DNA from: Bacteroidota bacterium
GTDB taxonomy: Bacteria; Bacteroidota; Bacteroidia; Chitinophagales; Chitinophagaceae
Length of the DNA stretch: 32,737 bases
Assembly (NCBI GenBank): GCA_947461595.1
Contig: CANHLZ010000005.1
Span: 1-32,737, forward strand
Reading direction: 5' to 3'
Shown here in pieces: positions 21,587 through 23,683 of this stretch. The first letter of the stretch is position 1, and the number at the start of each line of letters is the position of its first letter. Under the pieces are notes generated by a model. That model made no database searches. It was not told where the DNA came from and was given only the letters and a program-made list of their open reading frames with translations. Both the position numbers and the translations under genes were made by a program.

Positions 21587-22585
21587 CTAAATAATCCCCT
21601 TACTTGCTAGATATTCCGCAATCTGCACCGCATTGGTAGCAGCACCTTTACGTAAGTTATCGCTCACAATCCACATGTTTAAAGTTTTTGCTTGAGTTTC
21701 ATCGCGGCGTAAACGGCCCACAAAAACCTCGTCTTTTTCATGCGCCCATAAAGGCATTGGATAAAATTGTTCCGCATCATTTTGTTGAACTACTACCCCT
21801 GGTGCTGCTGCCAGTTCGGCGATCAATTCCTTCAAATCAAATTCATTTTCAAATTCTACATTCACACTCTCACTGTGCCCCCCCATCACCGGAATACGAA
21901 CAGTGGTCGCGGTTACTTTAATGCTATCATCTTGCATGATTTTGCAAGTTTCTTTGACCATTTTCATTTCTTCTTTGGTATAGCCGTTTTCTAAAAAAAC
22001 ATCAATTTGCGGTATCGCATTTAAATCAATAGCATATTTGTAAGCCATGTCTTCGGTTGCTACCTTAGCTCCTTTTCTTTCTTCCATTAATTGATCAACT
22101 GCTTTTTTACCGGTACCAGTGACACTTTGATAAGTACTTACTATCACTCTTTTAATTGTATATTTTGCGTGCAAAGGTTGCAAAGCCACTACCATTTGAA
22201 TGGTTGAACAATTCGGATTGGCAATAATTAAATCTTCGGCAGTTAATACATTTGCATTTACTTCTGGCACTACCAATTTTTTAGTAGGGTCCATTCGCCA
22301 TGCAGAAGAATTATCAATCACCCGAATACCTGCTGCTGCAAATTTTGGCGCCCACTCCAAGGAAGTGCTCCCACCTGCAGAAAAAATAGCCACTGCTGGT
22401 TTGGCCGCAATACCTTCCTCCATGCCTACTATTTTAAAGGACTTGCCTTTAAAGCTAACTTCCTTACCAACAGAACGGGCAGAAGCCACTGGAATTAACT
22501 CAGTTACTGGAAAATTCCTTTCAGCTAGTACTTGTAACATTTTTGTGCCCACTAGCCCAGTGGCACCAACTACTGCAACTTTCAT
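21587..22585 (-). CDS. asd: Aspartate-semialdehyde dehydrogenase
   Basis: VAVVGATGLVGTKMLQVL, catalytic NPNCSTIQM, VTGTGKKAVDQL, RIPVMGGHSESV. Confidence 0.97.
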   Translation of the reverse strand: MKVAVVGATGLVGTKMLQVLAERNFPVTELIPVASARSVGKEVSFKGKSFKIVGMEEGIAAKPAVAIFSAGGSTSLEWAPKFAAAGIRVIDNSSAWRMDPTKKLVVPEVNANVLTAEDLIIANPNCSTIQMVVALQPLHAKYTIKRVIVSTYQSVTGTGKKAVDQLMEERKGAKVATEDMAYKYAIDLNAIPQIDVFLENGYTKEEMKMVKETCKIMQDDSIKVTATTVRIPVMGGHSESVNVEFENEFDLKELIAELAAAPGVVVQQNDAEQFYPMPLWAHEKDEVFVGRLRRDETQAKTLNMWIVSDNLRKGAATNAVQIAEYLASKGII

Positions 22586-22605
22586 TTTGTTTATTTTATT
22601 AATTT

Positions 22606-22635
22606 AAAAAGCCTCCCAATTTCTTGGAAGGCTTT
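22606..22635 (-). terminator. Intrinsic terminator in the asd leader
   Basis: Minus strand AAAGCCTTCCAA-GAAA-TTGGGAGGCTTTTT: 12-bp stem with one G-U pair, GAAA tetraloop, U-tract; ends 20 nt before the asd ATG. Confidence 0.8.
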
Positions 22636-22664
22636 CTGAATATATTTTTAGCATACAAACAATC

Positions 22665-22675
22665 AGCACCTTCCT
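22665..22675 (-). promoter_or_regulatory. Candidate antiterminator strand (AGGAAGGTGCT)
   Basis: GGAAGG (22669-22674) is complementary to CCTTCC of the terminator 5' arm (22626-22631) and lies directly after the leader ORF stop. Confidence 0.5.
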
Positions 22676-22676
22676 A

Positions 22677-22721
22677 TTACAGGGGTTTCATAATTTGTTT
22701 TGTATGTTTATATTTTGTCAT
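22677..22721 (-). CDS. Candidate leader peptide MTKYKHTKQIMKPL of asd
   Basis: 14-codon ORF ATG ACA AAA TAT AAA CAT ACA AAA CAA ATT ATG AAA CCC CTG TAA between pfkB and the asd-proximal terminator; enriched in Lys, Thr, Met, Ile. Confidence 0.45.
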   Translation of the reverse strand: MTKYKHTKQIMKPL

Positions 22722-22757
22722 GTCGTGAACGAAATTAAATCGAATCCAATGAATCAC

Positions 22758-22765
22758 CAAATTTA
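22758..22765 (-). promoter_or_regulatory. Candidate -7 box TAAATTTG for the asd leader transcript
   Basis: Exact TAnnTTTG match overlapping the pfkB stop codon, 36 nt upstream of the leader ORF start; a second match TAATTTTG lies just upstream inside pfkB. Confidence 0.35.
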
Positions 22766-23683
22766 TACTAATTCAATATCAAAATTAACCAGCTGAACGA
22801 ACGATTGTATGCGTTCTTTAATATCCAATTCATTAATTTCAGTTAATCGTTGTGTTCCAAATTTTTCTACACAAAAACTTGCCAAAGCACTACCTACAAT
22901 GATAGCTGACTTCATATTATTGAAAGAGAAATCTTTAGTTTTTGCTAAATGTGCAACAAAGCCGCCCGCAAAGGTATCTCCAGCACCTGTAGGATCAAAT
23001 ACATCTTCTAATGGTAAGGCAGGTGCAAAAAATACTTCTGATTTATGAAATAAAAGCGCTCCATGTTCCCCTTTTTTTATAATTAAAAACTTAGGTCCCA
23101 TCGCCATAATTTTTTTGGCTGCTTTCACTAAGCTATACTCTCCACTTAATTGACGTGCTTCACTATCATTCACCATTAAAACATCTACCAAACTTATAGT
23201 ATGTAATAAGTCATCCATCATTACTTCCATCCAAAAATTCATCGTGTCCATTACGATTAATTTAGGACGATTTTTCATTTGCTTAATCACACTACTTTGT
23301 ACCCCTGGCACTAAATTACCCAACATTAAAATTTCACAGTCCTGGTAACTATCTGGCACAACAGGTTGAAAATTTTCCAATACATTTAATTGCGTCTCCA
23401 CGGTATCTCGGGTATTCATATCTAAATGATACTTCCCACTCCAGAAAAATGTTTTTTCATCTTTTTTTATTTGTACCCCTTCTAAATTTACACCTCGAGC
23501 AGCTAGCGCGTCTAATTCAGATTGAGGAAAATCACCTCCAACAATAGAAATTTGCTTCACCGTAGTGAAGTTGGAAGCGCACCATGCAATATAAGTAGCC
23601 GCTCCACCAATTATCTTATCGCTTTTCCCAAATGGGGTTTCAATGGCATCAAAGGCCATGGATCCTACAACTACTAATGACAT
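22763..23683 (-). CDS. PfkB-family sugar/nucleoside kinase
   Basis: N-terminal VVGSMAFDAIETPFGKSDKIIGGAATYIAW and C-terminal DPTGAGDTFAGGF motif. Confidence 0.93.
   Translation of the reverse strand: MSLVVVGSMAFDAIETPFGKSDKIIGGAATYIAWCASNFTTVKQISIVGGDFPQSELDALAARGVNLEGVQIKKDEKTFFWSGKYHLDMNTRDTVETQLNVLENFQPVVPDSYQDCEILMLGNLVPGVQSSVIKQMKNRPKLIVMDTMNFWMEVMMDDLLHTISLVDVLMVNDSEARQLSGEYSLVKAAKKIMAMGPKFLIIKKGEHGALLFHKSEVFFAPALPLEDVFDPTGAGDTFAGGFVAHLAKTKDFSFNNMKSAIIVGSALASFCVEKFGTQRLTEINELDIKERIQSFVQLVNFDIELV

Follow-up and report, generated by a model that had tools for sequence, protein, structure and literature searches.

The attenuators described in E. coli and Salmonella (thr, his, trp, leu and phe) are built from a short open reading frame (ORF) rich in codons for the amino acid of the pathway, a stop codon near an RNA segment that has two alternative partners, and an intrinsic terminator just before the first gene. 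The thr leader of E. coli senses Thr and Ile. The device that we analyzed upstream of asd is alike in each of these respects, whereas its ORF carries lysine codons, its target is asd (also dapA and lysA), its start is predicted to be near-leaderless, its promoter is of the Bacteroidetes kind and it matches no Rfam leader family. Lysine-responsive 5' control of lysine genes is also provided by the lysine riboswitch (L box), which is a ligand-binding aptamer without a leader ORF, unlike the asd device, and the Rfam aptamer model of the L box found no match in the window, by which we mean the whole analyzed stretch of 32,737 nucleotides. Across all Rfam families, including Thr_leader, His_leader, Phe_leader and Bacteroid-trp, nothing matched at the gathering score, either in the window or at ten additional loci. 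The Bacteroid-trp leader (RF01692) is a leader-peptide RNA from the same phylum but concerns tryptophan, and the window reaches 19.8 bits on it (E 7.4), whereas the gathering score is 49. Sub-threshold matches to ncr1575, Phe_leader and GibS were discarded because they rest on the terminator and on A/U-rich parts. Likewise, a likeness of AUGAAACC...GGUGCU to the core of the SAM-I riboswitch was dropped, as Rfam gave no match and the conservation is accounted for by the reading frame.

Outside the phylum, a close case is found in Sinorhizobium meliloti, where the passage on SEP5 describes a translated small ORF with six Thr and three Lys codons, suggested to be a leader peptide (PMC10117765). 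SEP5 resembles the asd leader in being a small ORF rich in pathway codons within the 5' UTR of an aspartate-pathway gene, but it is alphaproteobacterial and dominated by Thr, and that passage gives no attenuator structure; the target is written there as 'aspartate dehydrogenase', which in our reading means asd. The trpL leader of S. meliloti likewise has 14 residues and its AUG is the 5' end of the mRNA, although it serves tryptophan in the Alphaproteobacteria (PMC10117765). Within the phylum, leader-peptide attenuators at amino-acid biosynthesis operons, the same kind of target as here, were inferred from transcriptome and structure in Flavobacterium psychrophilum, and the main text of that paper names no lysine or asd leader (PMC9723704). 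Leader-peptide attenuation has also been suggested in Bacteroides. We found no lysine leader from Bacteroidetes in the open literature, most subscription papers and supplements lying beyond the search, and its novelty is therefore provisional.

In the window, asd (aspartate-semialdehyde dehydrogenase; TIGR01296 asd_B, 417.8 bits, above cut-off) occupies 21587..22585 on the minus strand, as do all features given below, with its ATG at 22585. The upstream neighbour, a PfkB-type sugar kinase gene (22763..23683), lies outside the device, which also occurs without the kinase. Between the two genes lies a leader ORF of 14 codons and a TAA stop, MTKYKHTKQIMKPL (22677..22721), followed after its stop by AGGAAGGTGCT (22675-22665), which contains GGAAGG (22669..22674), and by an intrinsic terminator (22606..22637; −18.9 kcal/mol), a GAAA-capped hairpin (22635-22606 as given in the note) with a U-tract that ends 20 nt upstream of the asd ATG. 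An earlier note, made from the letters of the window, had listed the elements of an attenuator here, and a sequence check located all of them on the minus strand at the coordinates it gave. We consider it highly probable that this region controls asd by ribosome-mediated transcription attenuation, with lysine, as charged tRNA-Lys, being the signal sensed. What the sequences offer for this reading is a conserved ORF that looks translated, three co-varying alternative pairings, a fitting promoter position and an association with lysine genes.

While ribosome-mediated attenuation itself is a known kind of mechanism, the lysine specificity, the asd, dapA and lysA targets and the spread within Bacteroidia appear to be new. 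We regard it as fairly probable, with rather less confidence than the attenuator itself, that part of the Bacteroidia has an established control of asd by lysine, extended in some lineages to dapA and lysA, in the form of a lysine-specific ribosome-mediated attenuator whose mRNA is nearly leaderless, and that the lysine version is so far undescribed there. If so, lysine synthesis in these bacteria would be regulated without a lysine riboswitch at asd, and lysine would join the amino acids that are read by leader peptides. The leader and terminator would make a ready-made reporter for charged tRNA-Lys, and the predicted near-leaderless start, in hosts that do not use Shine-Dalgarno sequences, would allow a clean test of how efficiently a leaderless small ORF is translated for attenuation.

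With the asd protein as query, the corresponding loci were collected in relatives and in 80 genome records, and the 300 nt upstream of the gene were scanned for leader ORFs. The 14-codon mini-ORF proposed in the note proved to be conserved upstream of asd in the genus, in the family and in other families of the class. The hairpins and their spacing recur with it, well beyond what chance would give. One carrier of the element is the culturable Limnovirga soli KCS-6 (record NZ_WHPF01000007.1, locus L036). Within the genus, 55 of 73 genomes match covariance model R1 at E ≤ 1e-5; the 18 genomes without a match of that strength (E at most 1e-5) include many that are incomplete or small, while several of them have asd directly after the kinase gene, which counts against a lysine attenuator. 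With the wider model R2, matches were obtained in 185 of 299 genomes of the family, covering 74 of the 104 genera sampled, and a class-wide sample added 11 genomes of four other families at E ≤ 1e-4. For ten of these 11 a leader could be read before asd (families f43, f49 and f62), with peptides very different from those of the genus, such as MMIKKIKCAKKLFR, MKMICKNKKHDKKLFHSGKGN and MKNFKSVKQLDKPFL, each ending at a stop; at the match in f65 (L350) the ORF scan recovered no leader ORF. Simple scans found no Lys-rich leader in asd upstream regions of most other families or in 30 lysA upstream regions from the order, and the device is therefore patchy. Short weak model matches of about 65-100 nt (in G116 and G105, from other families of the order, and in contigs 99 and 120 of G000) were rejected as terminator-like sequences without a leader.

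In the window and in many congeners, the gene immediately upstream on that strand encodes the kinase, and the hairpin might be a mere terminator of the kinase gene and the mini-ORF a product of chance. However, of the 37 leader loci for which 700 nt or more of upstream sequence was available, 17 have the kinase gene there on the same strand and 20 lack it; the element, which has a promoter box of its own and a conserved ORF, also stands before dapA. We therefore judge a kinase terminator to be extremely improbable and continue with the attenuator. As side observations, the leader has been lost at seven loci of congeners (L006, L007, L012, L026, L029, L031 and L151), where asd starts soon after the kinase stop. 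At L126 (G064 contig 4) the terminator is retained before asd whereas the leader ORF and promoter region seem to be missing, and this naturally occurring deletion should leave only a terminator in front of asd. In some congeners (L014, L020, L023 and L025) the leader stop is about 190-210 nt from asd, compared with 91 nt in the window, with extra sequence between terminator and asd.

Of 73 leaders, 60 carry a promoter box of the form TAHHTT[TC]G at a distance of 3-14 nt upstream of the ATG, while shuffling of the upstream sequence would yield 0.8. The distance from box to ATG has its mode at 7 nt among leaders and is 8 nt in the window, where the probable −7 box, TAATTTCG (22730..22737), is of the Bacteroidetes TAnnTTTG type. 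A TTTG occurs 18-22 nt upstream of the box in 49 of the 60 box-bearing leaders, most commonly at 20 nt; the window has it at 22758..22761, also 20 nt upstream, as a probable −33 element. This TTTG lies within TAAATTTG (22765-22758), the sequence that the note had named as a box at the kinase stop. Comparison with relatives retains that sequence for its TTTG, the −33 element, but assigns the −7 box to TAATTTCG at 22737-22730. Transcripts start 4-5 nt after the −7 box in Flavobacterium johnsoniae (PMC6847099), and this spacing, applied to the box positions, gives 5' UTRs of 2-4 nt among the leaders. For the window, transcription is predicted to start at about 22725-22724 with a 5' UTR of 3-4 nt, and the leader mRNA should be nearly leaderless. 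In the phylum only a minority of mRNAs is leaderless, the report on F. psychrophilum giving 5.5% for that species (PMC9723704).

In the genus, the leader nearly always has 14 codons and the build M-x-x-x-K-H-T-K-x-x-K-K-P-x-stop. We tabulated 41 distinct 14-codon leaders using a pattern that demanded Lys at position 11, and Lys5, Lys8, Lys11 and Lys12 are invariant in all 41. The window and L003 carry Met at position 11 and thus stand outside this table; this departure of the window's leader from the usual Lys11 is a point against the lysine attenuator. Both AAA and AAG occur at Lys8 and at Lys11, and Lys codons make up 27% of frame 0 compared with 6% and 12% in the other two frames. Pro13 (CCT, CCA or CCC) is present in 40 of 41 and Thr7 in 37 of 41, with Ile in the remainder, while Ile, Met and Thr are common at the variable positions. 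As such, the leader is a short ORF enriched in codons for the product of the regulated pathway, and its translation is predicted. In two loci, L222 (G045) and L027 (G009), the leader is kept but the usual first codon is AAC, not ATG; L027 has an in-frame start further upstream, and in L222 the start may be upstream or lost.

The K-H-T-K-x-x-K-K-P series is unusually constant in the genus, as might be expected from a specific nascent arrest peptide of the TnaC or SpeFL type, or from a lysine-binding RNA aptamer, acting in place of codon-dependent stalling. The constant stretch, however, is the part of the RNA that forms arm 1 and the partner of GGAAGG, and in leaders from outside the genus Lys stays whereas P, H and T are variable or missing. 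As for an aptamer, no Rfam riboswitch matches, and the stop codons (TAA in 30, TGA in 7 and TAG in 4 of the 41 leaders) are freely exchanged yet always present, although an aptamer would not need a stop. Both forms of this explanation thus seem very improbable, and codon-dependent stalling on lysine is preferred.

To describe the RNA, four arms are distinguished. Arm 1, CATACAAAACAA (22695..22706), corresponds to codons 6-9 and forms the leader hairpin (1:2) together with arm 2, as indicated by the duplex-swap test and a paired change. The core of arm 2 is GGAAGG, which according to folding and duplex swap has two alternative partners, the ORF end (1:2) and CCTTCC (2:3); the 3' part of arm 2, TTGTTTGTATG (22652..22662), is the partner of arm 1 by the same two lines of evidence. 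Arm 3, TCAG...GCCTTCC (22626..22639), is both the partner of GGAAGG...CTGA and the 5' arm of the terminator (3:4), both pairings being supported by duplex swap. The 173-nt region folds at −36.3 kcal/mol compared with −24.9 kcal/mol for shuffles (z −2.95).

In the duplex-swap test, the pairing energy of an arm with its own partner is compared with that for partners from other genomes. The first set gave z values of −5.5 for 1:2, −5.9 for 2:3 and −9.4 for 3:4. For 30 representatives drawn from the family and beyond, in most cases one from each genus, the values were −7.2, −6.7 and −9.3, respectively, and none of 5000 permutations matched the observed value for any of the three pairings. Since the covariance model that placed the segments holds 1:2 and 3:4 but no 2:3, the 2:3 signal is not a product of the model. 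The alternative GGAAGG/CCTTCC pairing, whose lack of conservation would have spoken against the note's proposal, is thus conserved and co-varies, being replaced by GGGGC/GCCCC in L035 and L128 and by GGAAAGG/CCTTTCC in other families. One pair between arms 1 and 2 changes from G-C to A-U in 9 of 25 sequences. The note had also suggested that the ORF end pairs with GGAAGG as the 1:2 hairpin; the whole 1:2 pairing co-varies, but this inner part is not significant in the first duplex-swap set (z −0.5).

Counting pairs in fixed columns backs 1:2 and 3:4. By this count the antiterminator (2:3) alone is not significant, since its CUGA:UCAG / CUCU:AGAG extension shifts the register, and of the two tests only duplex swap supports it. 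RNAalifold predicted no pairs from a MAFFT alignment of 47 sequences, probably because variable loop lengths misalign, and that alignment was replaced by one of 25 sequences, the covariance model and the duplex-swap tests. From these pairings, the antiterminator is predicted to exclude the terminator, and the leader hairpin to exclude the antiterminator.

From this arrangement we infer ribosome stalling and a response to lysine. RNA polymerase would start 3-4 nt upstream of the leader ATG, and a ribosome would translate the 14-codon Lys-rich leader. When lysine is ample, the ribosome would reach the stop codon and cover GGAAGG, or it would be released there and the ORF end would pair with GGAAGG...TTGTTTGTATG; with GGAAGG occupied either way, the terminator would form and transcription would end before asd. 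Under lysine shortage, a ribosome would stall at the Lys codons, GGAAGG would pair with CCTTCC as the antiterminator, and asd would be transcribed.

The note had already proposed that a ribosome at the stop masks GGAAGG whereas stalling at a Lys codon frees it, and this behavior was reproduced by constrained folding, in which the nascent RNA extended as far as the loop of the terminator and the ribosome footprint was masked. With the A-site at a Lys codon the antiterminator is predicted (−15.2 kcal/mol in the window), while with the A-site at the stop it is gone (−3.8 kcal/mol). The other asd leaders examined show the same fold switch as the window; for two dapA leaders the minimum-energy structures agree but the pairing probabilities are less clear-cut. 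At equilibrium, the ribosome-free nascent RNA of the window also prefers the antiterminator, and basal termination would therefore depend on the 1:2 hairpin folding first.

Alternatively, a genuine attenuator might respond jointly to several amino acids of the aspartate family (Lys, Thr, Ile and Met), as the note had assumed and as the thr leader of E. coli does for Thr and Ile. Asd supplies all four, Thr7 is found in 37 of the 41 genus leaders, and Ile, Met and Thr are frequent at the variable positions. Nevertheless, Lys is the sole one of these in every leader; Thr is absent from some genus leaders, the dapA leaders of g152, the lysA leader and most of the distant asd leaders, and in the asd leaders of f43, f49 and f62 there are 4-7 Lys but 0-1 Thr residues, these distant peptides being hand-picked examples, not a census. 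The His-Thr-Lys-Arg/Gln stretch that includes Thr7 lies within arm 1, and RNA pairing alone can conserve it. Furthermore, homologous leaders precede dapA in genera g43, g54, g152 and g192 (for example MQLIKKHTKRVKKHSVYREG and MNSIKKYSSKKNISQREDA, each with a stop), the dapA identity resting on TIGR00674 above cut-off for L235, L237 and L240 and on matching N-terminal sequence for the others. In f15, a different family within the order, a Lys-rich leader, MMIYKHKSSKRFLPKW and a stop, precedes lysA (TIGR01048 above cut-off), and both dapA and lysA are lysine-specific genes.

The genome of the window also has a His-rich leader, MILRNHTHHFHLLYKG and a stop, with a terminator before hisG (L213; G000 contig 35, 2691-2805, minus strand), which is the model's second match in this genome. 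It is constructed like the asd leader, and its His content is what one would expect if the codons of a leader correspond to the pathway encoded downstream. In four members of the family, thrA has a Thr/Ile-rich run of its own upstream. Taken all together, the dapA and lysA leaders, the Thr-poor distant asd leaders, the hisG leader and the thrA run make lysine the likely signal; a joint Lys/Thr/Met/Ile signal is unlikely, and the amino acid sensed is most likely lysine alone, with a contribution of Thr possible inside the genus, where Thr7 is well conserved. The thrA runs (L282, L283, L284 and L289; for example ...STIITTTTTR and a stop) end at a short hairpin, AACCC-GCTAA-GGGTT, before the gene; an intrinsic terminator scan of these four upstream regions found none, so thrA control may be of another type. 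Related His-rich leaders stand before hisG in several congeners (L214-L221), and the terminator region of the lysA leader of f15 (L229; G139 contig 292) is closer to that of the His leader than to that of the asd leader.
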